A model generated the notes under the pieces. It was not told where the DNA came from and did not search any database. It worked only from the letters and a program-made list of their open reading frames with translations. From NCBI GenBank assembly GCA_029204225.1, contig CM055108.1:17641779-17705778 (forward strand): a stretch of DNA of 64,000 nt, read 5' to 3'. Both the position numbers and the translations under genes were made by a program. Shown here piece after piece: positions 1 through 50,181 of the stretch (the stretch's first letter is position 1; the number at the start of each line of letters is the position of its first letter). This DNA comes from Diphasiastrum complanatum (Eukaryota > Streptophyta > Lycopodiopsida > Lycopodiales > Lycopodiaceae).

Positions 1-486
1 GTCAAGTAGATCTTGAAGATGGACTAGTGCAACCTACTTGGTTTATGGAGTCATGAAGATGGAGATGGAGGCTCATTCATGGAGTTTTTTGGTGGAGACA
101 TATCAAGAATGGACAAAGTTGGAGGAGACAAGCAAGAAAATGGTCATCACTCATATTTATTGTTTGGTTGCTGTAATTTTCCAGAGAGTTCAAAGTTTGA
201 AACATGGAGAAATTATTTCATTCACATCCTATTTGGTTCTTCATGTTCTAGTTATATCTTGATGTGTAAAATTGATGTAAGAAATAGTGAAGCATCTAAT
301 TTGGACACTATTCTCTATATCAATTATGGAAACTACTTTAGAATCTTAGAAAGGAGATCTATACTTAGGATGGAGATCATTCTAAAGTTGGATCAAAGTA
401 GTATGGTCAAAACTATGCCAAAACTAGTTACTGAGGGAGTGTGAGAGATTTCAACAAGTTTAGTCATATTTTGGTAAATTGAGGAG
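1..486 (+). other. Unassigned stretch with a 121-codon ORF, possibly the 3' end of a decayed copia element
   Basis: An open frame at 79-444 shows no domain I recognise. Its end, with a GGGAGTGTGAGA-type junction near 434-445, resembles the polypurine tract/LTR junction seen at the end of Copia-3 (21794-21808). This may therefore be the 3' internal end of an old copia element running off the left edge. The resemblance is short and the call is weak. Confidence 0.2.
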
Positions 487-780
487 GTGTATGAAACTGA
501 TGGAAGATCAATATCCTATAATTCATCAAACAACTTATTTGTTGATCGAAATTACTTGGTGAGATACATTGTCACATTCTATGATATAACCTTTGAAAAG
601 GTGAACGAAAAAACAATCATAGTACCTAAGTTAGATGAGTCAGAAATTGTAAAAGGGCAAAAGATGGAGAGGGTTAGTATAACTCTCATGAATGGTGCAC
701 TATCACAAACAGAGGACCAAGAAGATTTCAGATTCAGTGTCCAATCAGAAAATGATATATGGTGGTTGGTAGTGTTTCGG

Positions 781-862
781 GTAACTAGCCTTATTATAAC
801 ATTACATTCATTGAATAGTATTAATTCTTTGTATACTAAAGTTTGATTAATTCTTTGGACAG
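781..862 (+). other. Probable spliceosomal intron I in family Q copy A
   Basis: This 82-bp segment begins GTAACT and ends GGACAG, and removing it joins a phase-0 frame (…VVFR to VLKEDHD…). Copy C has an 84-bp GT..AG segment at the same protein position (46374-46457, minus strand), also phase 0. Positional conservation between diverged copies supports a real intron. Confidence 0.65.
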
Positions 863-1680
863 GTGCTGAAGGAGGATCATGATATATTATCATGGATATT
901 CTCAAGGACATCTTATCCTCGGATCATCAAGGACCATATGGATGGAGGACTTCTCAATGTTCCTAGAGTTGGAGACTTGAATGTTGAATGGCACTTAGCA
1001 GGTGATTTGAAAACATTGAAATGCATGTATAATGTCTCTCACGGTGCTACATCTAAACACCCTTGTTTGTACTGCATGAAAATGGCAGAAGATGTTACTA
1101 GGAGTACATGAATTACTAGAGAATATGCATATCCAAATTGGAAGCCTGTGCTGCCTATCCCCTTGTGAAATGCGCATGTTTGCACTCTTCATGCAGAAGT
1201 TAGATTACTAGAAAAGATCATTTATCTTCATATAGATTTTGCTTGGAATAGTAAGCCAGCATCATCCGCAAAGGAAGCTATCTCTCGATTAGAAGATGTG
1301 TCCTCAAATGCAGGACTTCATAAGGGACATGTCAAAATTCAAAAAGATGAAAAGCTTTCAGGAAAGACTGGAAATATGCCAACTAAGCCAAGCATAGGGG
1401 GAGCAAAAGCACGTCAATCCTATCAAATCATACTGGTAAGGCTTCTAATATTCAACACTCAATCTAGACAGATATCATTGCCGCCACTCAGGACTTCGAA
1501 AAGAGCGACAAAACTAGAGTACTAAAAGTTGATGTATGGAAGAAGCTTGATAGTATGATTGCTATTCTAAGAAAAGATAAATTCTCGAATATTGATAAGA
1601 AAGTTGCTCAAAGGACTTGTGTCAAGTTTGTTGATGCAGTATCAAAAGCATGGGGAGAAGATCACATCACTCATTACATG

Positions 1681-1769
1681 GTCAGTATAAATTCTTCAAG
1701 ATGCTTTCAATTTTCCATATATATTTAGATCCAAACATAAGATTGACATTATGGTTTTGACATTTGTAG
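1681..1769 (+). other. Probable spliceosomal intron II in family Q copy A
   Basis: This 89-bp segment begins GTCAGT and ends TTGTAG. It separates the exon ending ITHYM from the exon starting HILRDHT. Copy B has an 86-bp GTAAGA..TTGCAG segment at exactly the same place (45145-45230), between THYM and HILRHHT. Confidence 0.65.
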
Positions 1770-2439
1770 CACATACTAAGAGATCATACAACATTTTTTG
1801 CAAACACATATGGAAGCCTGAGTGTTTGGCCATCACGGGATGGAGAAGCCACATTGGCAAGCACGGGCAACATTTCATCGAAATACACAACATGGAGGAA
1901 CCAATGAAAAACGAAACTACATTTGTCAATTGTTTTTGCGGTTCTACCGCAAAGTTCAGATTCGACATATAACAAAGTCCACACAATACAACAAGTTTAG
2001 AAAAGCATGCAAGTTTATACAGGAAGAAAAAATTAGATGATTGGTGAGTAGAAGATAACAAAGACATTCAGTCATCATTGTCATCAAATCATGACATGTT
2101 CAAAATTGCTTGCAAATTCATGGAACAAGAGAGAAGAGAAATACCCAATGTAAATGTATTGATTGTATTACTACAAAATACAAAGTGTTCACTATTCATC
2201 ATCAGCTTTTGTGTCAGCTTCTATGGCTGTATTGTCATGAAGATATGTATGCATCTAATAGATGTGCATTATCCTTATTTCCACTAAGTTCCATATAAGT
2301 AGAGTACAATGAATAATGGGAGCTCCTTAAAGTAACATTCCCTTCAGTAAAACCTAGAATGTTCAAAACAAGATCTTTTGACGAAAATGATCTTATTTGT
2401 CTTAATAATTTACGTCCTCCTAGATAAAATGATAAAGCT

Positions 2440-2914
2440 TTAACTACCATTCTCCCCAACTAGGCTCAGCTTCGAATGAGCAATATAGATCTCATTTTTT
2501 AGAAAATGCCTAAGATAGTGGCCAAGTCCACTATCCCTCTGGATCGAGGATGCATGTTGTCTGTAACCACCTCGTCTCGCAACAAAGTCATCAATTATGA
2601 GAGCATCTTGCAATAAAAAAAAATAAGTTGAAAAAAAAATACATTCGACAATTAAGAACAGTCTAATGCAAGGACGTTTAAACACTTACACATTCTAGAT
2701 CAGGATGATCAATATTATGACCACCTATTGAAGAAGAATCATTTGTGAAATGCATTAATAATGGACGAGGGAAGCCCATCTGGGATTAAAATGCCATGAA
2801 TTCTTTATCAGATGGTATGCCTCGTCCATGCTCAGCAATATTTGATAAAGCCCTCATCAAGCATTCTTCACCTGCCATCTTCACCATCATAATCAATTCC
2901 AACAAATCAGCCAT
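2440..2914 (-). pseudogene. Family Q copy A': N-terminal-type fragment, inverted
   Basis: Read on the minus strand, an ATG at 2914 opens MADLLELIMMVKMAGEE…, with a TAA stop after about 44 codons. Read through, it continues to SIGGHNIDHPDLE, then a probable intron, then DDFVARRGGYRQ and GHYLRHFLKNE, ending near 2440. The plus-strand copy at 44.5 kb matches (VGHNLDAASM, then ASRHGGLRERQ and AHYLKHFLNNK), with a clean intron there at 44666-44758. In copy B this block lies directly upstream of the C-terminal block in the same orientation; here it faces copy A tail to tail. It is either a separate ORF of the same unit or an inverted N-terminus. The exact splice junction in this copy is unclear. 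Confidence 0.45.
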
Positions 2915-3402: not shown

Positions 3403-3741
3403 GCATGATCCCATCCACCCAAATCACTTCCACCATTCCAGTATCATTACCTACTAACACCAATCCCCTTCCACCACTACCCCCTGTTGGAAAATGAACT
3501 TTACTTTCCTTCATCCCTGGATAACTCCATGTGGGACGAATCAGATTTTGCAAAGGCGACTGCAAGTGCAATCCGCAAGTACAATAGAATCAAATAATCG
3601 TAACTAATCAGGTGCTAAAACACGACTATTAGTTTTACAAGAAAAGCTTAGAAGAAGATGTAAAGATAGAATATAAGTTGGTGCAAATGTAGCGCAGAGA
3701 AGGAGAGAGTGAGATAGAAGAGAAGCTGATATAGCTATACA
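3403..3741. other. No gene seen
   Basis: Short non-coding sequence between the small ORF and the first recognisable Copia-1 LTR sequence. Only short chance frames are present. Confidence 0.5.
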
Positions 3742-4509
3742 ATAGATCTTGATCTAGATTCACTACACTTAGATTTAAGCAAGAGCAATGGATCGAAACT
3801 TCATAAACTAGTGATAGCGGCCTCACATGTGTGGAGTACTGTCCATTGTACGGCCTGCACCTGAAACAACAAGTACTTTGGTTCTTGATAGCAATCATTC
3901 AATAAAATCACAATTCTATTGACTAGAAATCTCACAAAAGTGTAGAATGCAAAAGTCTCATCAATCTCATTAGCAAAATGATGATCCTTTTATGGATCAA
4001 GTACATCCACAAGTCTGGTATAGTCCAGCAGGTCTTCACATGTGTGAAGAGTGCCACATCACTCAGATCTATCCATTTGATCCATCCTTGATCCTTATCC
4101 AAAGTTGACCTTCTAGAATATGGCCAAAATTCAAAGAGCTAGTCTCCTAGAATATAGGAATATTATTTACAAAATAGGATCTAAGAAAAATAGTAAACTC
4201 TTATCTTCTAGAACTCTATCCACACGTATGAACATCCACTTGCCATGTGGGAGCATTTACTCATGCACATGTAAGGATAAGGTAATTTCTAGGTGACTAG
4301 TCAACTTGACTAAAAATAGTCATATCATGTTCACACTTAACTTGATTGATACAAAATCAAAATAGATATTTACAAGTATGAAAAGTACTTTCTTTCACAT
4401 GTGGAAATAGGCTCCACACGTGTGAAATCAGATCATGAACATTATTGTACTCATCATTGATCTTTTTTTACAATAAAAAATGACAAGTGAGAAGTGACAA
4501 TTTTCAACA
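3742..4509 (-). repeat. Copia-1 3' LTR (truncated)
   Basis: Closely similar to the Copia-2 LTR (5817-6679) from AGATCTTGATCTAG onward and ending GACAATTTTCAACA beside a CTCCTCCTC polypurine tract complement. About 100 bp of the outer edge present in the other LTRs is missing, so the left end is truncated or rearranged. Confidence 0.75.
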
Positions 4510-4522
4510 CTCCTCCTCACTT

Positions 4523-5811: not shown

Positions 5812-5816
5812 AAATG

Positions 5817-6679
5817 TGATAAATTTTACAGTTTTTAGGACAATAATGATTGTACTTTACAATCATAGAGAGTTATTGGTTGCTTAATCAATGAATCTAT
5901 CAAGTTCTACACATTAGATCTTGATCTAGATTCACTACACTTGGATTTAAGCAAGAGCAATGGATCAACACATCATTTTTTAGTGAGAGCGGCTTCACAC
6001 GTGTGGAGTACTGTCCACTGTACGGACTGCACCTGAAACAACAAGTACAATGATACTAGATAGCAATCATGCATAAAAATCACAAGACAAATGACTAGAA
6101 ATCTCACAAAAGTGTAGAGTGCAAAAGTCTCATCAATTTTCTTAGCAAAATGATGATCCTTTTATGGATCAAGTACATCCATGAGTCTGGTACAGTCCAG
6201 CAGGCCTTCACACGTGTGAAGAGTGCCACATCACTCATATCTATCCATTTGATCCATCCTTGATCCTTATCCAATAGTTGACCTTCTAGAATATGACTAA
6301 AATCCAAAAAGCTAGTCTCCTAGAATATAGGAATATTCCCTACAAAATAGGATCTAAGGAAAATGGTCAACTCTTATCTTCTAGTACTCTATACACACAT
6401 GTGAACATCCACTTGCCATGTGGGAGCATTTACTCATGAACATGCAAGGAAAAGCTAATTTGTAGGTGACTAGTCAACTTGACTAAAAACTAGTCATTTC
6501 ATGTTCACACTAACTAGAATGATACAAAATCAATTTGGATATATACAAACATGAAAAGTACATCCTTTCACACATGGGAACATGCTCCACACGTGTGAAA
6601 TCATATCATCAACATATTCTAATGTTTGATCAATATTTACATGAACCAATGTCAAGTGAGAAGTGACAATTTTCAACAC
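5817..6679 (-). repeat. Copia-2 3' LTR
   Basis: Begins TGATAAATTTTACAG and ends TTTTCAACA on the plus strand, giving TG…CA termini. It contains several TCACACGTGTG palindromes (about 5998, 6210 and 6584). It is nearly identical to 11268-12129. Confidence 0.9.
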
Positions 6680-6688
6680 TCCTCCTCA
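6680..6688 (-). other. Copia-2 polypurine tract
   Basis: CTCCTCCTC on the plus strand is GAGGAGGAG on the element strand. It abuts the 3' LTR, where plus-strand DNA priming would start. Confidence 0.7.
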
Positions 6689-6691
6689 CTT

Positions 6692-9600
6692 CTAACTTGG
6701 CAAATCTAGTGTACATCTATCTACAATTCCAAGAGCATATCTTAACTTAAAAAATGGATCTTTGGACAATGGTTTGGTTAAGATATCAGCTATGCATTCG
6801 GATGATGGTACATGATGTAGTTGCACTTCCTTGGATTGTACCTTCTCCCTCACAAAGTGGTGAGCTATCTCAATATGCTTTGTTCTAGCATGGAAGATAG
6901 GATTTGAAGCAATTTGTTGAGAAGCTTGATTGTCACAAAATATGTAAGGGATCTCCTCGGCCTCTAGAACATGTAGTTCCATCAAGAGCCTTCTTAGCCA
7001 TAAGAGCTCTTTGGTTGTTGAAGTCAATGCCTTGTACTCGGCTTCACAAGAAGATAGTGAGATTGTATCTTGCTTTTTGGAAAGCCAAGATATCACTGCT
7101 CCACAAAGAAATGTTGCAAATGCACTAATGGACTTCCTATCCATCTTGTCACCTGCAAAATCTGAATCCGAGTAGGCTCTCAAGTGCAAGTTAGATCCTT
7201 CATAAAGTATACCAAAAAATCTAGTACTAGAAACATATCTAAGTACTCTCTTGGCACTTTTCCAATGATGAATTAAAGGAGCTTGCATACTTTGACTCAA
7301 CTTGCTTACACAAAAACTTAAGTCAGGTCTAGTGATGGTTAAATAGATTAGAGAGCCTATAAGCTTCCTAAAGAGAGTGATGTCCTCAAAGGATGCTTCA
7401 TCACCTTCATTAGTTGCTTTCACAACATGCTCCATAGGGGTGTCAATCCCCTTACAATCTTTCATACCAAATCTTTCAAGAATGGAAGTAGCATACTTAG
7501 ATTGACTTATGAAAGTACAATTGCTACTTCTAGACACTTCTATCCCAAGTATAAACTTTAGGAAGCCTAGATCTACCATCTTGAACTCACTAGATAAGTC
7601 AACTTTTACTTTGCCTATGCCATCATCATCATTTCCTGTCATAATGATGTCATCAACATAAAGAACCAAAATGATGATCTTTCCTTCATTACATTTGAAA
7701 TATAAAGAAGGTTCATAAGCACTTAGTACAAAGCCAAGGGAATAGAGAAAATCATGCAACCTAGAGTACCAAGCTCTAGGTGCTTGCTTCAAGCCATATA
7801 GGCTCTTCCTTAAGTAGCACACCTTTTGCTCCTCACCAATCTTGATGAAGCCCTCGGGTTGCATCATGTAGATTTCCTCTTCTAAGAAGCCATTCAAGAA
7901 GGCATTTGTCACATCCATTTGGTAGAGATCCCATTTGAACAAAGTAGCAATGCAAATGATTAATCTAATAGTTACAAGCTTAGCTACAGGTGCAAATGTT
8001 TCTTCATAATCCAATCCTTTTATTTGAAGAAATCCCTTAGCAACAAGCCTAGCTTTGTATTTACTAATAGATCCATCTTGATTGTACTTAATTCTATAAA
8101 TCCACTTACATGCAAGTGGTTTCTTTCCTCTTGGAAGATTTACAAGATTCCAAGTATGATTTTCTTCTAATGCATCATACTCTACTTGCATTGCATCTCT
8201 CCAAACTTTAGATTTACATGCTTCTTCAAAAGATGATGGTTCTTCAATCAATGTAGCTAAAAAAGAGTAAGAGGCAGAAGATGTAGAGCCTTCCTTTTGC
8301 TTTCCCTTGTCCACATAGGTAAGCCTTGAGGGCTCGGCCTTGCTCCTTGATGATCTTCTTGGCCCCTTTTGACTTGGATCCAAATCTCCATCCTCGGGTT
8401 TGTCATGATCCTCCTCGGGTTTGTCAAGATCCTCCTCGGATTTGTCAAGATCTTCAATGCACAATGGGTTAGATCCATTTGACAAGCTCTTAGCAAATTG
8501 TGACTCATCAAAAAGTACATCCTTGCTTACCTTTACTTTCTTGGATGTAGGATCATATATCCTATATCCCTTGCTATTTTCTCCATAGCCAACAAAGATT
8601 CCTTTGAAGGAGGTAGCATCTTCTTTCCTTCTAGTCTCCAAAGGAATGTGTACATAACAAGTACATCCAAAGATCTTAAAATATTTTACATTGGGTTTCT
8701 TATCAAACAAGGCTTGATAAGGTGAGATCCCATCTATAGCACTACTAGGAAGTCTATTACACAAATAATTAGCACATGTTATGGCTTCTCCCCAAAATGA
8801 GATGGGAAGTGATGCATCAAGCCTCAAGGACTTTGCACACTCACATAGACTCCTATTTTTCCTCTCGGCCACCCCATTTTGTTGAGGGGTGTAGGAACAA
8901 GTGTATTGTAACTTAATACCATTGATCTCACAAAAGTCTTTCATTTTATTGGAGGTGTACTCTCCTCCATTATCACATCTTAGTGCTTTGATAGAAGTAC
9001 TAAGTTGTTTCTCTACTAGAGACTTGAACTTAATGAAAGCTTCATAAACAAGATTTTTCTTTGATAGTAACTCAATCCATGTGAATCTAGTACAATCATC
9101 TATAAAAGTTACATACATCAAGGCACCTCCATTACTTGCATGTGAAAAACTATGTACATCAGAATGTATGAGATCCAAGGGAGAGAGAGATCTTGATGAA
9201 GATTTCTTGTAAGAAGATTTGTGTGACTTTGCAAGGCCACATGCCTCACACATTTTTCCACACTTCTTGAAAGCTCTTGGTAGGCCGAGAGCTAGTTCCT
9301 TGCTTGCCATTGACTCCATAGATTGAAGATTAGGATGGCCTAATCTCTTATGCCAAAGCTCCACTTGAGTTAGCTCCTCCCTAGCCAAGTTCACACTTTC
9401 ACTTGCAACATTAGCATCCAACTTGAAAAGTCTCCCTTGCTTAATGCCACTAGCTATGCACTTATCATTTTTCAAGATGGAACAAACTCCATTCTTGAAA
9501 TGTACATCTAGTCCATTGTCCATTAATTGTCCTACACTAAGCAAGTTTCTTGAAATGGTAGGAACATACAAAACATTATCTAGATCTATCCTTTTAGATG

Positions 9601-23401: not shown

Positions 23402-24566
23402 TGTTGGCTGATTCTGACGAATCCCCAAGATACTCGTACAGAGCAACTCAAGAGCACCTCTCACCTTAGATCGAGGAGGTCTTTGAGAAGACGAGACTAA
23501 TGAAGACTGAGAGCTGAGTATGAGAGCCGAGAAATACTAGCTAGGAAAGACATGCAAGAACTGTGTAAGCCTCATGGTGAATCCCGGAAGATGGAATGAC
23601 CATGTGGGAACTAGTATTTCTAAGCACATGTAATAAATGCAAGTAGACCCCTCATAAAGAAAGTAGAGTGAGCCACCTTTTGATGGTGACCTCTAGTGGA
23701 GAGCAATATTCCACTTGTAATTTGTGAAATGTGGAAATTCTACTAGGATGCCACCTTAGGAGCTCTCTTGCTTATTTAAGAGACTCCTTCTTTGTGAAGA
23801 GGAGCTTTTTGCATTGTATCTACTCCATGCTTAATAAGAAGATTTTCCATGAGTTTGATGCTACACTAAGCTCCTTGATCATGATGGTTTTCTTGAGTGA
23901 TGCCCCTATGATCATGCCCTTCCATTCATATTGTGTGTGGTTGTGGATTTAGAGTGGATTAGTTTTCTTGCTTTCCTCGTTGTGGATTAGATTTCTTGTT
24001 TTCTTGTGGATTAATGTAGGAGCCAGCATTCAAGTAAACTAAATAGGCTGGATCTGTGGTGTGATTCTTGCATATCTCTATACAATCCAGTTCTTGATAT
24101 TCTTGGGATGTCCAAGAATCAAAAGGCTAGTTGGTTTCTTGATTCTTGGACTTCTAACATGTTGTAGATTAGTTTCTTGTTTCTTGTTTTGTCAATTTAT
24201 GCAAGGTAGTTCAGTGTTAATGTAGTGTAGGCTCTGATTTCAGTCCGTTTTAAGTGTAGGTAGCTGTAGAATCTGTAGAACGTTCATTGGTTTGTATGAT
24301 GATTTGTGAATGAGCGTTCTTGGCCTGCATCCATGTAGAATGTAAGTGCGTTCAAGAGTGATGTCTCTGAGTTGTCCTCTGACAGGCAGGACATAAAAAA
24401 AATACTACAACAAAACTTTGTTCCTTCTACCTGGGTTGGCATCGTAAAATCAATCAAGAAACTATCTAACGATTGCCATGAAGCCTGATAACAGGCAGAA
24501 ATGATTCTGTAAGCAAGAAGCAGAAAAGTAAACAATAGGTCCTATGGAGCAGGGGATCTGTCAACA
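23402..24566 (+). repeat. LTR-L copy 1 (1165 bp)
   Basis: Begins TGTTGGCTGATTC and ends GGGGATCTGTCAACA, with inverted termini TGTTG/CAACA. A second copy at 47718-48532 has the same ends and a perfect target duplication, which fixes these boundaries. A TTATTTAAGAGACTCC element near 23772 could be the LTR promoter. No target duplication is seen here, and no PBS follows at 24567. Whether it belongs with the gypsy gag starting at 25772 is unclear. Confidence 0.75.
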
Positions 24567-25771
24567 TTTGACCCATTTCTCACATAATGAAACGACATAT
24601 GCTGCAAGACTATCTTTGATCGGACCCATGAACGCAATCTGAAATGTCTCTAGATCTGTTCATAGCTCAGAACGACCTGCACACACCATTCCCATGCCCT
24701 GCATACATCCTTAGCTCCTTCTACATCATCCTCTACCCGTAGCTTACCCATCGTCTCCACCTCCCTCTGTCACCATCTCAGCCGAGCACCCTGTCTCACG
24801 TCTCAACCGAACACCCTCTCTTCCATCTCAATCGAGCACCCTGTCTCACGTCTCAACCGAATACCCTCTCTTCTATCTCACCCGAGCCTCTCTCTCTTAC
24901 CATCTTGACCGACGCAACGCAGGTGCATCAAAAAAAAAAAATTATCTCAACCAGAGCTCACGCTCACATTTCAACCGGAGTGCTCAGTTAAATCTCAACC
25001 GACACAGTGCATCCCATCTCAACCGAAGCCTTCCTTTGAAATCTCAACCGAAGCACTTCTTTGGAATCTCGACTGGAGCCTTCCTTTGAAATCTTGACCG
25101 AAGCACTTCTTTGAAATCTCGATCGAAGCGCTCATTGGAATCTCAGCCAAAGTGTTCGCTGGAATCTCAGTCGAAGTGTTCGCTGAAATCTTGACCGAAG
25201 CGTTCATTGGAATCTTAGCCGAAGTGTTCGCTAGAATCTCATCCGAAGTGTCCGTTGAAGTCTCAGCCGAAGTGCCTGCTCAGATCTTGAAGCCGAAGTG
25301 CCGGCTCAAATCTCGACCAAAGCCAAAGTGCCCGTTCAGATCTCGACCGAAGCTGAAGTGATGTCGATTGGAGCTGAAGCGCCCACTCAAATCTCAACCG
25401 GAGCCGAAGGAGCGATCAAATCTCGACCGGAGGGATTCAATCAGTTCTCAACAGAAGCAATCAGGCCAAAGCTCGATCGGAGCAAGTAACACCCATCTCG
25501 ACCGGACCATAACTTTTGATCAACACCTCTGATTGCCATTTCGACCGAACCACCATCTTCACAACACCTTCGAGACTGAAAAAAAAAAAGGCATGAATAC
25601 CAATTTTTTTTCAAAAAACAACACCCATACCAATAGAATGCTCTTTTCATACTGAGTTTTCCCTTGACTTCCTAAAAAAACCCAGAAAAAATCGAAAAAC
25701 ACCAAAAACCCTAAAAAATCCAAAAACACCATAAACACATACCCAACACAAAAAAGACACAACAATACCCA
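24567..25771 (+). other. Leader-like non-coding region with a degenerate minisatellite
   Basis: Between LTR-L and the Gypsy-2 gag. From about 24770 to 25520 it consists of degenerate tandem units of about 30 bp built on AATCTCAACCGAAGC. Some of it stays open on both strands and gives low-complexity peptides, which is a by-product of the repeat. After that comes an A-rich stretch (25640-25770) just before the gag ATG. Confidence 0.6.
24770..25520. repeat. Degenerate ~30-bp minisatellite (ATCTCAACCGAAGC core)
   Basis: At least a dozen imperfect units are visible, clearest at 25010-25300, each with TCTCRACCGAAG followed by a variable GCNTTCNTTGGAA spacer. Unit length drifts between about 27 and 33 bp. 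Confidence 0.7.
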
Positions 25772-36292: not shown

Positions 36293-36795
36293 GCCTTTTG
36301 AGATTGGATAAGATAAATCCAAGTGCTCATTAGAGTTCATGTGAAAAAAAGCCCCAATGGATCATGGGCCGGGCAGAAATCTCTCTGGAAATCCTTACCC
36401 GGCCCATTCCATAATACTACCGGAACGTTTTCAGAAAGACTGTTGGTGGAAGAGCGGCACGGAGCTACCTCTTATACTACTACATCCAATTAAAACTTGC
36501 AGCTTGCTGCAAACAGTACAGTACTCGCTGAATGAATTGCACCCACACATGCAGCTGCACCTAAAGCTCGAATCGCAACTCTTCCGAAGGTAAACGCCTC
36601 GCCTGCATGAGCTGACCAAGTACCAAAAACGATTTTCATCTTTCCTGTTAAGTACCAAAAACTTTGAAATTCCTGTAATACAATCAGAGCAGCAATCTGA
36701 AGGGAGAGATAGATCGAGAGGCAATCACAGAGGCTGTAATTTGACAGGAGGTGCCTGCATTCATATTTGCACAAGCAGCAGCAGCTACCTCAGAT

Positions 36796-37749
36796 ATGGA
36801 TCTTTCTCTTTCCTTGAACTGTAATTATAAGCGAGCATTGGAAGGTGAAGAATTAGTCAAGTGCCCTCATTGTGAATCTCTTAATACAAAGTTTCGCTTT
36901 TTCAACAATCATAAAGAGAATCAACCGAGATATAAGTGCAAAGATTGCGGCCTCACATTCACAAAGAATGGGAAGGTAAGAAAAAGGAGTAAGCTGCATG
37001 TGCATGAGCAAGAAGAGCAAGTGCTAGTCATGACTCAAAATATTGCACATGAAGAAACAACTGAATTTGAAGGATTATCTCCACCAAACACTTGGCAAAG
37101 AACATTGGAGTTGGACAAATTAGGAAGTAATTGCTTGCATTGTGGCTCCATGGATATCAAATTCCGCTATTTCAACAACAAAAAGCAAAGCCAAGCGAGA
37201 TACCTATGCAGAAATTGTCATAAAACATTTACACGGGGTGGAAAATTAAGGAGCGGGACTACGAAGCTGGTTAATTCAGTGCAACCAAGCCCCCGTGATT
37301 ATAACGTCAAATCCCCTATAATTGAGGAAAATTTCGACAATATTGAAGCATCACCACCAACACTTGATCAGGGTTGTTGGGATGACTACAACGTCTTTGA
37401 CATTCAAAACGAAACTTTATTGAACATATTCACGGAAGAAGATGCAAAGCTGGTTGAAGATTGGATTGGAGGATTGACAGTTGATCAGCTTATGTGCAAT
37501 ATTGAATCTGATCAAACATGTGCTATGGGAAATTCGTATATGTACGAGGATCAAAGTCGCAGCAATATGCATACTGAAAGCCTTGAAGCAACCGAGCTCC
37601 CAATTGAAGATAATTTGGACAATGACTATCTACTCAACATTGAAGATTTGCAGTTCACAATGGAAGATTTGGGCAAGCTCGACTTTCTAGAGGACATTGA
37701 AGATTTGCTGGATTCATTGGAGAGTCATAGTCCAAACAATACTACATAG
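36796..37749 (+). CDS. Protein with two tandem Dof-like zinc fingers
   Basis: Probable plant transcription factor acting in the nucleus. Numbered from an upstream in-frame ATG at 36751 (332 residues), finger 1 is C38-X2-C41-X21-C63-X2-C66 and finger 2 is C128-X2-C131-X21-C153-X2-C156. Both carry the Dof signature (NTKFRFFNNHKENQPRYKCK; IKFRYFNNKKQSQARYLC). Ordinary Dof proteins have one finger. The usual RYWT tryptophan is Phe in both (LTFT, KTFT) and the VGGG tail is absent, so these are divergent. I prefer the ATG at 36796 because it starts MDLSLSLN, an LxLxL EAR-like repression motif. The C-terminus is acidic and leucine-rich (MEDLGKLDFLEDIEDLLDSL). The frame is single-exon and undamaged. 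Divergent zinc-ribbon transposase-derived proteins are a weaker alternative. Confidence 0.85.
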   Translation: MDLSLSLNCNYKRALEGEELVKCPHCESLNTKFRFFNNHKENQPRYKCKDCGLTFTKNGKVRKRSKLHVHEQEEQVLVMTQNIAHEETTEFEGLSPPNTWQRTLELDKLGSNCLHCGSMDIKFRYFNNKKQSQARYLCRNCHKTFTRGGKLRSGTTKLVNSVQPSPRDYNVKSPIIEENFDNIEASPPTLDQGCWDDYNVFDIQNETLLNIFTEEDAKLVEDWIGGLTVDQLMCNIESDQTCAMGNSYMYEDQSRSNMHTESLEATELPIEDNLDNDYLLNIEDLQFTMEDLGKLDFLEDIEDLLDSLESHSPNNTT

Positions 37750-40878: not shown

Positions 40879-41866
40879 CTAGTCTTTGAGATATTGTTTT
40901 AGATCTGCTACTTCCTTTTGAAGGTCAAAGATTTTGATGCAGGCTTCAACATACTCTAAGTGATCAGCAACTCCCGAACATTTGTGAGTTGCCTGAAATT
41001 GCTTCGCCAATTCTTCAATCTTCTCTAGGGCTTGCAAATATTCCTCGTGTGCATCTGGCCCAGAAGGAATTGTTGTCTCGGCGGATAGTTCATTCAGCTC
41101 GGTGAGTTCTTCTTCGACTAACACTTTGTTGTTTTCGAGCGGAAGAAGAAACTTGACTCAAAATTTTTTGAGCATCTGGTCCTGAAGACAGTGCAGCTTC
41201 AAGAGATCAATCTGAATTGATCCAAAGTTGTTGCATAATTCTAAGGCAGTTTCTATCTTTATTCTCCTAGTAGTCTTGAAGAGTGGTCTGTAGAGTGGTC
41301 TTTTGTGCGTTGACCTTATTAAGCTCAGTTGTCAAAGAATCAAAATTTGTCTGCAATTCTGCAGACTTGGTCGTTAGTGTCTTATTGCTGTCCTTGTATG
41401 ATTGGGCTTTGTCAATTGATTGTTGGAGAATTCCGCCCAAAGAGCGATTTCGCTCAGTCAACAACTTGTTGTCTGGCTCTAGAAATGTAATCTTCTCAGC
41501 CAACATTATAATGTTGCTGGTCATCTCATCCGTATGTTGGAATAATTGCATCATGCTATCTTGGATGTGCAGATCATAGACATGGATTTTACCAACAATA
41601 TCCTTGGCACCCAAGAAAAATTGACGATTCCATCTGTATAAATTCTCTTTGTCGTCCTCATCCACGTTCATTGCCTCCTCATCAACCCCTTTGTCTTTGT
41701 CTTGCATCTGCGTGTCGGAGATGGTGTCCTCGCCATCCGTGGATGCAGAGCTCTTTGGCTTCTCAGAAGACCCGTCTGTAGCTAGGACGATGGCCAAAGT
41801 ATCGGCTGTAGTAGAGGGCTCAGGTATATTCTGTGCAGCAACATTTGACTCTGTTTCCTCATTCAT
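40879..41866 (-). pseudogene. Coiled-coil protein, unrecognised, broken
   Basis: The ATG at 41866 opens an acidic Ser/Thr-rich N-terminus (about residues 1-75), then a long heptad-type stretch (MAEKITFLEPDN…, ELQTNFDSLTTELNKVNAQK), stopping at 41267. A shift of frame there allows continuation through one more stop into a second coiled coil (EEEYLQALEKIEELAKQF-like, FDLQKEVADLKQYLKD) ending at 40879. The two ORFs probably once formed a single gene. No catalytic motif is seen. A retroelement-associated coiled-coil ORF or a host structural protein are both possible. Confidence 0.4.
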
Positions 41867-42431
41867 TGAAAATGCTCAACATTTATACTGCAAATCCAAA
41901 AGAACCGAGTCAATTGACTTATCAAAAACCAAATCGAAAACAACTTAGTTAGGCCATTCACTAGTCTATTTGCCTTTCGTATATCTGGAGCCCCGGATTG
42001 CATGATGTACCACTCTAAAAAGTCCTATACATTGCGGATGGAGAACCATCCACAACTATGTCCATCCTCTTGTTGAGTTGCCTTCAATCACAAAACGTAT
42101 AATAGGTTAGCTATGCACTCTGAAAAAAACAGATCATATTACCTATCAAATACTTGATGAGAAATACTTACTTCTACATCAACAATCTCCAGGTGTCTAT
42201 TTACAATGGCCCCATCCGGCCTTGGCAAAAATGGCAACATTCTGTTGTACATCACGTCCATTTCGGCATGGGTAGACTTTAAGGAGTTCATCTTTAAACA
42301 AAAATCCCATCTGAATCTTCCCTAAGGGTTATTATATGCATACTCCAATGCTTACTGCAAACAAGAGATAATTAGTTAAACTAAAGGAATTACAATACCT
42401 ATTAAAAATATCACTAGAATATTCTATGTAA

Positions 42432-42833
42432 TCATTTACTTTTGGCAGTATGGAATAATAAAGACTTTGGTCTTCGAGGTTGTATGGAGAAGATACTTCG
42501 TCGCATTAGTTGGACTATGAAGGCTGTGTGAGAAAAAGGATAGCACAACACCAACGTCCTTAGTATCATCGCATGACATCTATTTACAAAATACATCAAA
42601 CCAGCCTCCACAACTGGATCTGATATATCTAAGGTCTTCTCCTTCAGGGCATCACAAAAGTCTTTATTTATGTAATTTATATAATTAACTGAACTTAGAA
42701 AAAAAGAAAATTGACCACCTAGCTTGTCAATTTCTTTGGCAACATACTCATCAAAAATTATATACCTCTCAGAATCCAAAAATGAATCTTTGGGATCAAC
42801 AGGAAATCTTACACAGATCCTTATAAAAATCAC
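42432..42833 (-). CDS. Unrecognised ORF (133 aa)
   Basis: No known motif. A block RFPVDPKDSFLDSERY then NKDFCDALKEKTLD loosely parallels FPVDAEVSDRQAHF then YKDFYDCLQQGTLL in the ORF at 44128-44460 on the same strand, which suggests two decayed copies of one family. It could be an exon of the coiled-coil locus downstream. Low confidence that it is expressed. Confidence 0.25.
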   Translation of the reverse strand: MIFIRICVRFPVDPKDSFLDSERYIIFDEYVAKEIDKLGGQFSFFLSSVNYINYINKDFCDALKEKTLDISDPVVEAGLMYFVNRCHAMILRTLVLCYPFSHTAFIVQLMRRSIFSIQPRRPKSLLFHTAKSK

Positions 42834-43148
42834 CTATTAAATTTAAATCTAGATTCGATGTTATTTTATCTACAGTTGAGTTCATATCCTCGTTATTGTG
42901 AGATGGAATGGAGGGAATGGAAGAGGAACTACTTGAATAGTTAGGGGTGGTGGGAGGAGAAGAAAGCACTACAGACTAGTGTGATGGTCCAACCAAAGGA
43001 CGAGAGATGTGAGGGGGGGGGATGGTGACTCGTTGAGTACCACGCTTTGCTTGGCAGGCCTGGTGGGCTTGGTCTGCTTTCTTCTTCGTTGAGGAACAAG
43101 ACCTCTCTCTGTAGGTGGTGACCTAGAAGTGAAGCCACTCTTAAAGAC

Positions 43149-43442
43149 TTAATCGTATGTATTCCTCAGCCTCATGACAAGATGCATGTCCTGAGGCATG
43201 AGGGTAACCCTCTTAGCGTGCATTGTACAAAGCGTGGAGTCCTCAAAGAGTTTGACTTGGAAGTCCTCATAGGTAATATGGAGGGCTTCCAGGACTGTTA
43301 TGTTCCAACGAACATCATGTGAGAGGGACCTTGTTACCAGTCTCACAGACCTGTAGAAAGGAGCACGGGGAATCAGAAGATTCGTGGTCCTCTGAAGTCT
43401 CCTGATATCCCTTAACCATGGTCTTCTAGGCCGACTACTCTC
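43149..43442 (-). pseudogene. CENH3-like histone-fold fragment
   Basis: Minus-strand frame of 97 residues covering the histone H3 core from the αN helix to the C-terminus. TNLLIPRAPFYRSVRLVT followed by a VRW after the loop is typical of centromeric H3 (CENH3 LLIP… and RW), not canonical H3 (LLIRKLPFQRLV). The end KLFEDSTLCTMHAKRVTLMP keeps the strongly conserved H3 block LFED.NLCAIHAKRVT.M. Positions conserved in H3 are lost: the ALQEA core reads EALHITYED, and ARRIRG reads VMRLRN. The N-terminal tail is missing, with an in-frame TAG at 43443-43445. In the same frame beyond the TAA stop is a basic Pro/Arg/Lys stretch. Probably a CENH3 pseudogene or one exon of a highly diverged paralogue. 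Confidence 0.6.
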
Positions 43443-43762
43443 CTACCAGTTCCCACTGCCCTTTGTAGAGGAGGGCGAGGAGGCGGGGCAAATGTGGTAA
43501 GGCGGGCCATTGCAAGGTAGGGTATCGATATGACATGCCAACGAGCAGGGAAAGCGATATGAGCGATGGCGTATCGCCACGACGCGTGGGCAGGCCAGCT
43601 GTACTAGTACGTGGGTCCTTTGGCGCGCGGTAGTGATATGCGTCTAACGGGGAGTGGAAGTGGACGAAGGAAACTAAGGAGAGCCAGAGAACGAAGAATT
43701 AAGAAAGTGAAATAAGACCCAAAAATGTCCTTTTATACCTGTAGAACATCCCATCATATTCG

Positions 43763-44018
43763 CACGTGTGATGTGACAGCTCCACTCCCCGCACGTGTGG
43801 TCACACGCATCCCTCACGTGTCATGATATCAGCGGTTTGTATGATCAGACGGCTAGCATGCACGTGCGAGGACACGTGGCGACATTTGGACCGCACATGC
43901 GTCAGAAGACGACTGGGACGTATGATAGTACAGTTGTCATGCACATGCAAGGACGCATGTCAGGATCCGATGTGTACACGTGTCATTCAGAATGATTTTG
44001 TCGTCGTTTCCACACGTG
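43763..44018. promoter_or_regulatory. Cluster of seven CACGTG motifs
   Basis: CACGTG cores start at 43763, 43792, 43815, 43861, 43873, 43977 and 44013. CACATG variants at 43894 and 43942 occupy matching positions in an imperfect tandem repeat of about 80 bp (43815-43893 and 43894-43976). The change CACGTG to CACATG is what methyl-CpG decay would give. A TATA-like run follows at 44079. Confidence 0.6.
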
Positions 44019-44078
44019 TGGCAATTTTGACCACACATTTTGAGACACATGTATGATTCAGATGCTCTGTATTAGACT

Positions 44079-44086
44079 ATATATAT
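44079..44086 (+). promoter_or_regulatory. TATA-like element after the CACGTG cluster
   Basis: TATATATA follows the last CACGTG core by about 60 bp. It could serve transcription toward family Q copy B on the plus strand, whose first recognisable coding starts near 44517. Confidence 0.3.
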
Positions 44087-44127
44087 GAGTGTCATTTCTG
44101 TAATTCAGTTTCGCATATTGAGTCCAA

Positions 44128-44460
44128 TTAACCGGCCCGCTCCAAATCTGTTTGTACAATATCGCTACCACGCGCCCAGCAAAGACATCCATAGTTGCAC
44201 TGATTCCCTGGCACGTGAGCCAAATCTGTGAAATGCACAAATCTCAAGCCGTCTTTCAGAAGGGTACCTTGTTGCAAGCAATCATAAAAATCCTTGTACA
44301 GTTTAGAAAAAATTTTCTTGTGCTCAATAACAAATCTCTCTATGTCAAACTGAAAATTAAAATAGGACAAAAAATGGGCCTGTCTATCGCTAACCTCAGC
44401 ATCAACTGGGAAAGAACTAAGAGCTTTATCATAGATCACACGAGCATACGAGGAGGACAT
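44128..44460 (-). CDS. Unrecognised ORF (110 aa)
   Basis: Starts MSSSYARVIYDKALSSFPVD and contains FDIERFVIEHKKIFSKLYKD. No known domain. Possible relative of the ORF at 42432-42833. It lies opposite the upstream region of family Q copy B. Confidence 0.25.
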   Translation of the reverse strand: MSSSYARVIYDKALSSFPVDAEVSDRQAHFLSYFNFQFDIERFVIEHKKIFSKLYKDFYDCLQQGTLLKDGLRFVHFTDLAHVPGNQCNYGCLCWARGSDIVQTDLERAG

Positions 44461-44665
44461 ATCAATATGACACGCCGGTTAGCAAGGGGACATAAATGAG
44501 GTAAGTGTGAGGCTAATATGCCCAGTGATGAGGAGTTTTTGGCTTTTCAGAAAAAAGTATCCGCCACCTCCCACATATACTATTCCAGCTGACCAGCAAT
44601 CCACCATTATTGTTGGTCACAATTTAGATGCTGCTAGTATGATCCAAGCTGACGAGGAGGATTTG

Positions 44666-44758
44666 GTAAGTACACCTTCTCACGAAAATCATTCATTATT
44701 TAACGTGTAATTGATGACTGATCTGCTAGTTTGACTAACACTTGATTATGTGTTGTAG
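44666..44758 (+). other. Probable spliceosomal intron in family Q copy B, N-terminal block
   Basis: 93 bp, GTAAGT…TTGTAG, phase 0 between EEDL and DIIE. The inverted copy A' has a similar interruption at the same place. Confidence 0.6.
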
Positions 44759-45144
44759 GATATCATTGAAGTTGATGCCTTTGCTAGCAGGCATGGAGGA
44801 TTGAGAGAGAGACAAGGCGGGAGACAGAAGGATGCCTCATTGGCTCATTATTTGAAACATTTTTTAAATAACAAAATTTGTGTTCTTCATGAAAGGTTTT
44901 TTGTAAATGTAGAAACTTTATCGTCGATTTTTATCAAATCATTCTAAAGAGTCATCTAAGATCCAATATTCGGTTTGGAAAGATGTTATTTCTGCGACAG
45001 AAGACTTTGAAGATAAAGGAACAACAAGGGTAAAGAAGGTTGAAGTTTGGAAAAAGCTCGATAATATGATTGAAGTGCACAACAATAGAGTTTGTAGATG
45101 CAGTTCGGGTGGCTTGGGGCTCATATCACGTCACCCACTACATG

Positions 45145-45230
45145 GTAAGATACATTTGAACAGTGTCTTACAATTTTAGTATAACTTGCTTGATAGATTC
45201 TAACCAATGCATAAATCTTTGATATTGCAG
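45145..45230 (+). other. Probable spliceosomal intron II in family Q copy B
   Basis: 86 bp, GTAAGA…TTGCAG, at the same protein position as 1681-1769 in copy A. Confidence 0.65.
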
Positions 45231-46373
45231 CACATACTAAGGCATCATACATCATTTTTTGCAAAAAAGTATGGCAGTTTGAGTATATGGTCTTCACAAG
45301 GAATGGAGAAATCACATTGGCAGGCAAGAGCAGTATGCAACATGGTGGAACATCCTCAAAAAATAGTTACATCATTCAGCTATTCCAATGGTTTTATAGA
45401 CGAGCTCAAGTTTGATACACAACAAGATCAACTGAATATCAAAGATTCAAAAAAGCATGTAAATTAATAGCCAAAATTAGATTGATGGCATTCAATAAAG
45501 ATCAAACACGTGTGATAAAAAACTCTCAAATTTCACATACATTAAATGAAAAAGAGTACAATCATTTTTTTTCATTGTCTCTAAGGACAATTTTTGTTGT
45601 GTGGTCATGAAGGAATTTTTTCTTATCATACGGATCCAAAAATCGAGTGGATCGCCTTTTGCTCAAATCTATATATCCTGATAGAATCGCCAGAGCAGAG
45701 GATCTCATAGGAACATTTTTTGCACGTAATTAAACACTTTAAGAGAAACATCTCTTTTGACAAAAAATGATTCTATATGTATTTTTTGGGTATTTATGCC
45801 CTTGGGCAAAATAAGATAGGGCTTGATGGCCATGATTTTGACTCCTCCTATGCTAGGTTTATTGGGTATGTTTCCTGTTTTTCCCGAAAGCTTTTCATCT
45901 TTTTGTATTTTAACATGGCCTTTATGGAGGCCTGCTTTTGACAACACGTCCTCTAATTGAGCAATTGCTTGTTTTGATGCTGACTCTGGGTTAGTATTCC
46001 ATGCAAACAAGATATGAAGATATATTAATTTCTCTATGATCCTCACCTCTCCATGAAGTGTGCAAATATGCACATTTTGTAAAGGGATTGGTAGTACTGG
46101 TTTCTAGTTGGGATCTCTTAAAACTCTTGTGTTCCTTGAAATGTCATTTGATGATTTCATACAATATAGACATGGATGTTTCGAATTTGCTCCATGAGAT
46201 ACATTGAACATACATTTCAATGACTTCAAGTCTCTAGCTAAATGTCATTCCACCAAAAATTCACACCTTTCAGGAACACTAAGTACTTTGCCATTCATAT
46301 AATCCTTTATGATATCTAGATAACTTGTTCTGCTAAAAATCCAGGAAAGAACATCGTGATCCTCCTTGATAAC

Positions 46374-46457
46374 CTATTCAACATATGGATCACAAGTTCT
46401 TATGTATTCAAAACAATTACCAAAAGAAATTGCACATGAATAACAGCCATTTTTTAC
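46374..46457 (-). other. Probable spliceosomal intron I in family Q copy C
   Basis: 84 bp, GTAAAA…GAATAG on the minus strand, phase 0 between ACFQ and VIKEDHD. Same position as 781-862 in copy A. Confidence 0.65.
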
Positions 46458-47124
46458 CTGAAAACATGCTAGCCACCATATGTTGTTTTTTGATTGCACA
46501 CTGAAGTTGAGATCCCTTGAGTTTGTTGCATTGCTCAATGCTTCATTCATGAGAGTAATACTTACTCTTTCCAAGTTTTGTCCTTTTATAACTTCCGATT
46601 CATCTAGCTTGACCACCAGAATAAGTTTGCTCATACTAACACTTGTAATATTATAGAATTTCACTATAAATCTCAATAAATGATTCAAATCCACAAATAA
46701 GTTGTTGGTAGAATTATATGACAAATTGCCAAACTTTGAATTGTGAATCTCATTGATGTGAAAAGGGATTCCAATGACATTTTGCATACCCTTATTCAAT
46801 ACATCTCTCTCCAATCTTATCTGAAAAGGGCAAGGAATGGGAAATTTTCTTACATGCAATTGTCCAAAAGCCTCTTTAATAATTTTAAATATACTGGCAT
46901 ATGCCTCCCTACTAATACCTGAGAAATCACATGCTCCCTGAATTAACGTTCGGTCGATTACCTTACTAACCTCGTTCATCAAATCCTCAGTGACCTTGAA
47001 CTTGATTCGAGAATACCGATTATTGTCCAATAAAGACTTTGTGGACTTGGTTGTCAATACCGAACTTAGTGATTTTCCGATCATGTCATTGTCCTTCAGA
47101 TACTCATTTGCAACCAATGCTGAT

Positions 47125-47226
47125 CTGCAAATGATTATGAAAATTAAAAAACCCAAATAGGACACGTAATAAATGTCATGCTACTTCACAAAACTAGAAT
47201 AAAACTAATTCAAATCAAATCCTTAC
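47125..47226 (-). other. Probable spliceosomal intron in family Q copy C, after the coiled-coil block
   Basis: 102 bp, GTAAGG…TTGCAG on the minus strand, joining IQAF-K and SALVANE in phase 2. No second copy of this region is present in the window for comparison. Confidence 0.5.
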
Positions 47227-47717
47227 TTGAATGCTTGAATCCTTTTTCTCCGTTGGCCTCCATTTAGCGAAAGCTCATCAATGTCCTTTAGAATTCTTTT
47301 TCGCTTGTTTCTTTTTAATTTCTTATCTAGTATGTGAGTTTCTTCTTTTAACTAGTCATTTGATATACGTAATGTCTGAACAACTTGTCGGAATTGATCA
47401 TTACTTGCATTCAAATTTAACATAATATTATGTAAATGTGCATTATCTTCTTTTGTTTGTAATAATGCGGTCTCTTTTTCTCTATAGTCAGCAAGCAAAC
47501 CAATTAACATACATTCTAAACTCTGTATTTTCTGAACCGAGTTTTCAACACCATAAGTCGTCAATCTTTCACAATAACCCAATAAACCGTCATCTCCGTC
47601 ACACAAAAACTTTATTAATTGTGTAATGGATTGGAATTGTGGAGCTTGCATCGAGCTCGGATCCAATAGATACAAACTTCCATCAATCCACAAATCGTAA
47701 TTCTTTCTTTGGTTGAT

Positions 47718-48532
47718 TGTTGGCTAATTCTTACGAAGGATATTCCACTAGGATGCCACCTAAGGAGCTCTCTTGCTTATTTAAGAGACTCCCTCTTTGT
47801 GAAGAGGAGCTTTTTGCATTGTATCTACTCCATGCTTAATAAGAAGATTTTTCATGAGTTTGATGCTACACTAAGCTCCTTGATCATGATGGTTTTCTTG
47901 AGTGATGCCCCTATGATCATGCCCTTCCATTCATATTGTGTGTGGTTGGGGATTTAGAGTGGATTAGTTTTCTTGCTTTCCTAGTTGTGGATTAGATTTC
48001 TTGTTTCCTTGTGGATTAATGTAGGAGCCAGCATTCAAGTAAACTAAATAGGCTGGATCTGTGGTGTGATTCTTGCATATCTCTGTACAATCCAGTTCTT
48101 GATGTTCTTGGGATGTCCAAGAATCAAAAGGCTAGTTGGTATCTTGATTCTTGGACTTCTAACATGCTGTAGATTAGTTTCTTGTTTTTTGTTTTGTCAA
48201 TTTATGCAAGGTAGTTCATTGTTAATGTAGTGTAGGCTCTGATTTCAATTCGTTTTAAGTGTAGGTAGCTGTAGAATCTGTAGAACGTTCATTGGTTTGT
48301 ATGTTGATCTGTGAATGAGCGTTCTTGGCTTGCATCCATGTAGAATGTAAGTGCGTTCAAGAGTGATGTCTCTGAGTTGTCCTCTTACAGGCAGGACATA
48401 AAGAAAATACTACAACAAAACTTTGTTTTCTTCTACCTGGGTTGGCATCGTAAAATCAATCCAGAAATAGTTCTGTAAGCAAGAAGCAAAAAAGTAAACA
48501 ATAGGTCCTCTGGAGCAGGGGATCTGTAAACA
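47718..48532 (+). repeat. Solo LTR-L (815 bp) with TTGAT target duplication
   Basis: Starts TGTTGGCTAATTC and ends GGGGATCTGTAAACA. The 5 bp TTGAT precedes it (47713-47717) and follows it (48533-48537). Relative to copy 1 at 23402-24566 it lacks about 330 bp near its start. No internal retroelement sequence remains, so it is a solo LTR. It interrupts family Q copy C. Confidence 0.9.
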
Positions 48533-48690
48533 TTGATTCTATGAGCAATCATATCAAGTGGAGAAATTGTGGATTCTTTCACTACTCCTCTTTTAGCTAT
48601 CGGAGCATTATCGACAAGGAGAACAATGTGTAGATGAAACTGAGACATCTTCGCAAACATCAGATGACAGACCAAAAAGAAAATAGACAC

Positions 48691-50181
48691 TATTATTCAT
48701 CCATGAGATTCTATGTTTATTCTCTCGCTAGTTAAAATGAGGGACACAATCTCATTTTCAAATTTGAAAAAGTTAGTTAATGAGCGTCATAGGTTCTTGA
48801 AGTCACAGTTGCATACGTCATAATCGTGTCATGTTAACTACACATTACTAGTAAGGTTAAGCTAAACTGGACCTAAAAGTCCGTCGGAGTCTTAAGATTC
48901 GGCATTTTTTTTGTCCTACGTGGCATTTCTTAGATGGCCCTTTTGATGTTTGTAACTCCTCTAATGTTCACACTGGATCACCTTCTTGGTGCTAGAGTCT
49001 TCAGAAGATGAGGAGGCCATGTTAGTAGTGAAAGTTAAAGTGCGAAAAACTAAGAAAAACGGTGGAAAAGATAAAAAGAGGTGGAAATGACAAAAAACTG
49101 TGAATAACGAGTGTCGAATGGTACGAAGTAAAGTTCAGAGCGCAGATCTTGACTTAGGATGTGCAAATGAAGTTTGATTGCAAACAGAGAACTTGGAAAT
49201 TTTAGTAAAAATTTGAACAGAGCTTCGCCATCAAAGGTGACAAATGACTTGAATTCAGCCCTTATATAGCAAAATTTAGAGTGTGTACTAGGTGAAATCC
49301 ACTTTCCCTTGCTCAATTCCTCCCAAATTTTGGCAAGGACCTTCTTCACAAAATTTTAAGACCTCAGAGAAGTCTGCGAGAGTTCAGAAGGTGATTTGAC
49401 TGCCCTACGAAGGTTCTACGAGAGTTCAGACTTTCTGCGGAGGGTTCAACTCTCGCAGGAGGTGATCTCTCGCACAACATGTTCCTGTGATTGGATTTTC
49501 AAGTTCAGACCATGTAGGCAGGCTAATTTCACTGCTCTTATTTCATTTATGCCCTTGCGAATGTTGGTAGGATGATCTTGATGCTCTGCGAAGGTTCTAA
49601 AGATTCAGCCTCTGGGTACCTTCGCACACACTAAAAAATGATGATTTCTCCATCAGGAACTCTCGCAAAGATTTTTATGGATCCATCTGGATCTAGTGAC
49701 TGTCCAAGTTTCAAGAGCTATCTCCCAGGGGATCTCCAAAACTCATGAAAAAAGTGCTCTTTTTAGAGTGTTTTTTTAACGAGATCTTGAGATTTTCTGA
49801 TTTTTAACTTTTGCTAATTGGTAATCAGCTTCATCCATGCTTGATCTGACTGTTGGTAGTTCTCTGGAAGTTTTGACGGACATCTAGTAACAAATCCATC
49901 AGTTTTGGGTGAATTTTGCCCTTAATTTGTCATAGTTACTGAGATCGAGGTCTCTAATCTGCAAATTTAGGAGACTTATTGGCATAATCTGATGACCTGC
50001 TTCCTTCTTGATCCCATCTGGATCTGGATCCCTCTTGGATCCTGATGGATTCCCCAGATCTTGCCAGATCTAGCCGAATCTTGATGGATCTAGCTTGATT
50101 TGGGTTGATCTTCCTAGATCTAGTTGTGATGCCCTAGCAGAATAGCTTTTCATAACGTGCCACCTCCAATCTGGATCTATC
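48691..50181. other. No clear gene; TATA-like promoter on the minus strand and gypsy 3' sequence
   Basis: On the minus strand, CTATATAAGG (about 49261-49270) is followed by an untranslated-leader-like stretch and a short ORF MASSSSEDSSTKK that stops after 19 codons near 48966. Between 49370 and 49700, words like CTCTCGCA and TGCGAAGG recur. 49970-50150 has repeated AGATCTAG/GATCTGG words and is probably the 3' untranslated end of Gypsy-1. No LTR could be paired. Confidence 0.35.

Follow-up and report, generated by a model that had tools for sequence, protein, structure and literature searches.

The only precedent that we found in the open-access PMC literature for a transposon-borne histone is the histone H3-like gene H3L of a hAT transposon of the fungus Pyrenophora tritici-repentis (Manning et al. 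2013, PMC3538342). According to the available text of that report, this multicopy element of about 5.6 kb carries a hAT transposase of its own, a central gene of unknown nature and a divergent H3 between its inverted repeats, and no fusion of the H3 is described. Its 26 H3L genes, all from one species, are very similar to each other and thus provide no test of long-term conservation. Transposon genes acting against silencing are already known (VANC, TET/JBP). In the material available to us, transposons of several lineages bear an epigenetic-mark gene with a proposed role in silencing escape; its product is an enzyme that acts on DNA methylation and is not a histone. VANC of the Arabidopsis VANDAL elements (PMC10398659, PMC5735166) is likewise an anti-silencing factor encoded by a plant transposon, although the VANCs, as described there, are sequence-specific proteins, whereas the candidate considered below is a histone variant. 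Here we describe a DNA transposon with a histone H3 fusion gene in a stretch of 64,000 nucleotides (hereafter the window) from the lycopod Diphasiastrum complanatum (assembly GCA_029204225.1, contig CM055108.1, positions 17,641,779 to 17,705,778, forward strand). It resembles the fungal element in its inverted repeats, own transposase, central gene of no recognised type, divergent H3 and copy number. It differs in the type of its transposase, in the absence of a target duplication, in the fusion of its H3, and in that H3 occurs in four deeply diverged families. As far as the open-access literature searched goes, a histone conserved as an element gene across several deep families would be new.

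The element has four genes. In its own orientation these are a transposase-like gene (+), gene 2 (-), the histone H3 fusion gene (+) and gene 4 (-). The transposase-like gene consists of four blocks, which we read as exons from their frames and junctions. Gene 2, containing a block with the motif HYLKHFLNN, is downstream of the transposase gene on the opposite strand. The H3 fusion begins with MARTKQTAR, and the C-terminal region that follows the histone fold is of no recognised type. In the copies scanned against Pfam, neither gene 2 nor gene 4 nor the H3 extension gave a significant match.

The transposase led to two of the four families. The C-type is the family of the main window copy (parts of which the earlier note had named B and C), and the A-type that of a second window copy, A, and of the locus L040 with L062. 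Their transposases are 60-74% identical per block and their H3 fusions 36.6% identical over 382 aligned columns, with stops in the A-type copy compared; gene 2 is conserved in the A-type, and gene order and strands are as in the C-type. The other two families were found through H3. The D-type (L104 with L082) exhibits 33-64% identity in the transposase blocks and 42-55% in gene 2, and its H3 is located as in the C-type. The PP-type (L105) exhibits 41% identity in the transposase, together with relatives of gene 2 (E-value = 2.4e-8) and gene 4 (26% identity, E-value = 6.5e-16); its H3 follows a long proline-rich region and is convergent with the transposase gene. Twenty H3 places were picked by hand, 19 from the H3 search that yielded the D- and PP-types and one from the C-type H3 count: 17 are PP-type, one is a PP relative, one is D-type and one is C-like. 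A small group of C-like H3 sequences (L079 and L063, C5:31.5-31.7 Mb), with an identity of 71-72% and three places in a span of 0.2 Mb, is perhaps a further subfamily. By eye, the C-terminal end of gene 4 appears ubiquitin-like in two families (L105, 3046-3603 (+); L041, 4799-5623 (-)); the C-type gene 4 protein had no Pfam match.

The element H3 matches the Pfam Histone family (PF00125, E-value = 5.9e-23) and H3.3 in the PDB (E-value = 1.1e-21). In the aligned rows, its fold shares 42-56% of residues with host-type H3; host H3 itself is found at 13 full-length places with 97-99% identity. All copy counts refer to the genome holding the window (1.74 Gb, 5,176 contigs) and are lower bounds, since only the scored candidates entered them. 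Among the matches listed, an H3 place follows the C-type transposase on its own strand, 500 to 12,000 bases downstream (median 3,990), in 47 of 143 cases, where about 0.07 are expected; one H3 place is on the opposite strand and one is upstream. The PP-type gives a similar picture in its own arrangement: 53 of 139 transposase places are paired with H3 in convergent orientation (median 3,324), against about 0.06 expected, with a single pair of any other kind among the matches listed. No H3 partner is listed for 96 C-type and 86 PP-type places; as both lists are lower bounds and many copies are broken or cut (e.g. L032, L034, L036), these numbers may overstate the share that lacks H3. On these sequence grounds the H3 gene is assigned to the element.

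In the tail of the C-type H3, 27 of 28 copies cover the relevant positions. Lysine is present at position 4 in all of these but the window copy, which is frameshifted (26 of 27), whereas none of the 27 has lysine at position 9. Single copies of the A-type (ARTKSTAR-A) and D-type (ARTKQIAR-P) also retain K4 and lack K9. In the alignment, the element H3s either lack the stretch from K27 to K36 or have other residues there. The combination of a retained K4 with an absent K9 and K27 region is found in three of the four families (C, A and D). Centromeric H3 (CENH3) has a longer loop 1. Compared with host-type H3, none of the aligned rows (C, A, D, PP) has an insertion of this type. In a tree of nine rows and about 90 residues, the A-, C- and D-types join Arabidopsis CENH3, and the PP-type branches apart; on so small a tree, a CENH3 origin of the element H3 is no more than possible.

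The transposase was compared with the EnSpm/Chapaev/Transib/RAG1 group (CMCT), for which the available text of PMC12730594 gives the motif set D, D, C(2)C, H(3-4)H, E. The residues D174, D270, C290xxC293, H327xxxxH332 and E521 are invariant in all four aligned families, the PP row covering the catalytic part only and the rows being 43-65% identical to the first. Both the order of the motifs and the placing of the C(2)C and H(3-4)H pairs after the second D and before the E are those that define the group, and the element shares with it the outer bases CA...TG. The invariant D, D and E are probably catalytic. The transposase thus carries the CMCT signature in its sequence and is a candidate member of the group. 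A weak Pfam match to RAG1 (E-value = 0.058) was obtained with one of four members, over residues 316-376 including the candidate Glu 370. No member scanned matched a hAT transposase or the hAT dimerisation domain in Pfam, and a PDB profile search returned only an unrelated chain (E-value = 0.71). Matches to DUF1815, BLYB, DUF5569 and CCDC113 (E-values 0.02-0.2) were judged to be chance. As far as the same source describes them, EnSpm elements have CAC...GTG ends and a 3-bp target duplication and ESTA elements duplicate TA, whereas the present element has CATTA...TAATG ends and no duplication. The EnSpm/CACTA group proper was excluded, since the left ends are CATTAG and the right ends mostly TAATG, with no CAC...GTG among the ends displayed and a 3-bp duplication in none of eight pairs. 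The earlier note's suggestion of an intron-bearing transposon with D, CxxC, H and E is supported: the element is a DNA transposon, apparently with introns, and its D, D, CxxC, H and E are invariant in the four aligned families.

In the window, a single transposon copy of the C-type extends from 48966 to about 41858; two inversions and one insertion have disturbed its order. This was deduced by mapping its segments on a less rearranged copy, L039, numbered from its first base:

48533-48966 (-): segment corresponding to L039 element 443-1
46461-47718 (-): segment corresponding to L039 element 1697-438
45837-46361 (-): segment corresponding to L039 element 2231-1698
44921-45837 (+): inverted segment corresponding to L039 element 2234-3215
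44508-44920 (-): segment corresponding to L039 element 3626-3215
44216-44505 (+): inverted segment corresponding to L039 element 4211-4500
41858-44217 (-): rightmost recognisable segment, corresponding to L039 element 6962-4552

The features recognised in this copy, and in copy A, are as follows:

48934..48966 (-): left terminal inverted repeat, CATTAGAGGAGTTACAAACATCAAAAGGGCC..., element position 1 being window 48966
48532..48700 (-): transposase block 1, first part (tblastn tp1, 82% identity)
47719..48532 (strand not given): insert interrupting transposase block 1, 92% identical to window 23733-24568
47226..47718 (-): remainder of transposase block 1, coiled-coil-like (tblastn and mapping on L039)
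46458..47123 (-): transposase block 2, a putative exon, with the first candidate catalytic Asp (KLDESE) and NIWW; 92% identical to the L033 copy
45837..46373 (-): transposase block 3, with the second Asp motif (HLA.DLK), CLYC and HxCTLH; 90% identical to the L038 copy
44922-45144, in the inverted segment 44921..45837 (+): end of transposase block 3 (tblastn)
45231-45475, in the inverted segment 44921..45837 (+): transposase block 4, with the candidate catalytic Glu and QGMEKSHWQAR (tblastn)
45565-45825 (-), in the inverted segment: end of gene 2 (tblastn)
44508..44920 (+), opposite to the transposase: gene 2 block with HYLKHFLNN, element 3626-3215 (tblastn ORF2)
44212..44460 (-), in the second inverted segment (44216-44505): start of gene 2 (tblastn and mapping)
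42439..43507 (-): histone H3 fusion gene, frameshifted (Pfam, PDB, and tblastn in two frames)
43149-43442 (-): H3 fold within the fusion gene (Pfam Histone, 5.9e-23), with the C-terminal extension reaching to 42439
478..2025 (+): copy A, transposase blocks of the diverged family (tblastn tp2-tp4, 54-72% identity)
2470..2875 (-), opposite strand: copy A, end of gene 2 (tblastn ORF2, 32-43% identity, E-value = 8.9e-12)

The segments follow the order of L039 positions 1 to 6962, two of them inverted, from which it follows that B and C, taken by the earlier note as separate copies, are one rearranged copy. The right end and gene 4 of this copy were not found within the window. The similarity that the note had seen between blocks at four places was confirmed by blastn and tblastn, but these blocks do not make up one gene. 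Window 45825-46721 is 69% identical in DNA to 514-1419 (E-value about 1e-89), with further blastn matches of 44932-45072 to 1421-1561 and of 45218-45332 to 1756-1869; at the protein level, copies A and B/C agree in 66% of about 380 residues when the blocks are joined by hand. The motifs NIWW, KEDHD, (G/R)DLK, CLYC, CTLH, KDEKLSGKTGN, THYM and GMEK(S/P)HWQAR are all present as reported. Their composite order has to be revised: the HYL(R/K)HFL(K/N)N block, proposed as N-terminal, belongs to gene 2, which in other copies is located downstream on the opposite strand, and the H3 gene at 42439-43507 (-) of the same element had been overlooked.

The insert in block 1 and its counterpart at 23733-24568 form a repeat pair of ~837 bases with 92% identity. 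At the border of the last recognisable element segment, coiled-coil-like ORFs begin (window 40879-41875 (-)), of which the ORF at 41267-41875 adjoins the element. A blastn comparison of this region with the loci L037-L041 gave nothing longer than 120 bases; the region is perhaps an extra part specific to a subfamily.

The family is multicopy, as the earlier note had proposed. A 268-aa middle block of the transposase has at least 144 matches in the genome (143 candidates scored of 11,753 from the first look) and the C-type H3 domain at least 150 (150 scored of 6,589); the left end has at least 40 (40 of 822), the right end at least 40 (40 of 672), and the PP-type transposase block at least 139 (139 of 10,856). 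The ends are imperfect CATTA...TAATG terminal inverted repeats of about 33 bases. In independent copies, the left end reads CATTAGAGGAGTT... and the right end, as reverse complement, CATTACAGGAGTT..., so that inverted repeats are present at both ends. The exact left end CATTAGAGGAGTTAC (a 15-mer) is found in 26 of the first 36 loci. In the window and in L031-L035, L038 and L039, the left end is the first common base and the flanks are unrelated. Right ends, as reverse complement, correspond to CATTACAGGAGTTCTCAAACTTAGAAGGGCCGT with small differences; they terminate in ...GAGAACTCCTGTAATG or near it, the last bases being damaged in L034 and L054. Elements with paired ends measure about 8.4 kb (L038), 8.79 kb (C1254 and C5, treated as one since the insertion was duplicated) and 9.06 kb (C10), and the ends of the C8 pair are 18 kb apart. 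Pairs at C7:41.7 Mb and C14:43.4 Mb were dropped, the left end being absent at the guessed place.

The inverted repeats expected of a transposon were thus found, together with an empty site; the target duplications expected with them were not, either in eight independent end pairs (none with a duplication of 3 bases or more) or at the empty site. Two bases (CA) are shared at the ends of the C23 pair, one at those of C7 and of C1254/C5, and none in the other pairs, which is the level of chance. The empty site comes from C10, where a C-type element interrupts the transposase gene of an A-type element, between its blocks 1 and 2. When joined, the C10 flanks align at at least 40 places; three of these, close relatives of one another, were read and match over 109/109 bases with no gap and 97% identity. 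The C10 insertion thus made no target duplication. The right end of the A-type element was not found, its copies being alike through GA-rich repeats to the end of the fetched sequence. Two A-type derivatives lacking most of the transposase, L114 and L115 (from position 129), begin with CGAAACACCG. They are 99.93% identical over 2,981 bases and have different left flanks, a sign of recent movement.

Selection was estimated by the Nei-Gojobori method from single, partly broken copies. For the transposase, C-type against A-type, dN/dS is 0.11 in block 3 and 0.13 in block 4, block 2 being saturated. For H3 it is 0.15 between the C- and D-types and, in the fold, 0.13 between the C- and A-types. In the remaining H3 pairs synonymous sites are saturated, all with an excess of third-position differences. 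The H3 folds of PP and PP2 differ at 21, 8 and 58 first, second and third codon positions, with synonymous sites saturated. On these ratios, rough as they are, H3 is conserved as a protein between families.

Taken as a whole, the explanation that we consider probable is that of a four-gene DNA transposon, scrambled in the window, which would move by an RNase H-type cut-and-paste mechanism and might use its H3 against silencing or for steering on chromatin. The transposase would have an RNase H fold and move the element by cut and paste. With less confidence, we suppose that the H3 protein would be made and would enter nucleosomes or compete for them. The tails of the C-, A- and D-type H3 would be markable at K4 and not at K9 or K27, and such a histone would counteract the silencing of the element by its host. 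Alternatively, the H3 fusion might steer or tether the transposition complex on chromatin. The anti-silencing role agrees with the A-, C- and D-type tails and with the known cases of epigenetic genes carried by transposons; the chromatin tether fits the PP-type better. A more ambitious version, which we advance tentatively as possible rather than probable, is that of a deep plant transposon lineage with H3 as a core gene, in which the H3 found in three families, with the K4 segment retained but without K9 and the K27 region, would produce nucleosomes resisting heterochromatin and so serve as a weapon against silencing. The H3 might then have been acquired twice, given the other H3 orientation and the other fusion of the PP elements. 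Several observations weigh against these views. In the members scanned, the transposase matched nothing significantly in Pfam or the PDB. R2 and R8 vary in the C-type tails, R2 being lost in several, and the PP-type has no ARTK tail, so that the tail argument does not extend to this family, whose H3 may be a separate capture. The D- and PP-types were recognised through H3, and families without H3 could have been missed, so that the association is partly a matter of ascertainment. The loci read comprise one A-type H3 (with stops), one D-type H3 and one PP-type context. The dN/dS ratios are rough, with dS of 1.4-2.8 where finite, hence near or at saturation, and from single broken copies. Within the C-type, the shared changes in the fold of 28 H3 copies fall on the three codon positions as 13, 15 and 28 (p = 0.03), a weak signal that weakens further with the tail included (p = 0.15) and is absent from the C-terminal extension; these copies were chosen by protein score, which favours open frames. 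A weak signal within the C-type is expected if copies drift after insertion.

The same weak signal, with the discovery of two of the four families through H3, would suit an H3 that is a useless passenger captured by transduplication. As far as PMC3538342 was available, host-gene capture by plant DNA transposons is well documented in rice and Arabidopsis, and the fungal hAT with its H3-like gene is described without a shown function. We nevertheless hold a passenger to be quite unlikely: H3 occupies the same place in both families found through the transposase (C and A), and its protein is kept between families at saturated or nearly saturated synonymous divergence, where a useless passenger should have decayed or gone. 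Somewhat less unlikely, if still doubtful, is a histone that belongs to the integration machinery and acts in targeting or architecture, for example via H4 or H3 chaperones, and not against silencing. Its fold, without the CENH3 loop insertion and fused to other regions, could tether, and the PP-type tail is wholly replaced; against this, the eight paired insertion sites exhibit no obvious common sequence. A dispersed host gene family, which the earlier note had kept as an alternative, could account for the long open frames of many copies, but must be rejected as hardly credible in view of the terminal inverted repeats, the empty site and the copy number (more than 100 matches over many contigs), along with the unrelated flanks and the insertion of one element in another. 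Some DNA viruses encode histones, according to the part of PMC9145170 available. An integrated virus or virus-derived element with a histone gene is nonetheless extremely improbable, as two scans of viral contigs yielded no relative of the transposase and no viral gene was recognised among the ORFs scanned against Pfam.

Under the preferred reading of a transposon with an H3 gene of its own, the element H3s are natural variants for asking which tail and core residues silencing requires. The element also offers a transposase lineage that combines a RAG1/Transib-type motif set with the lack of target duplications.

Elsewhere in the window, positions 36745-37749 (+) encode a protein in which the Dof-type zinc ribbon occurs twice (Pfam Zn_ribbon_Dof, E-value = 7.1e-32, two stretches). 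Dof proteins usually have one zinc ribbon.

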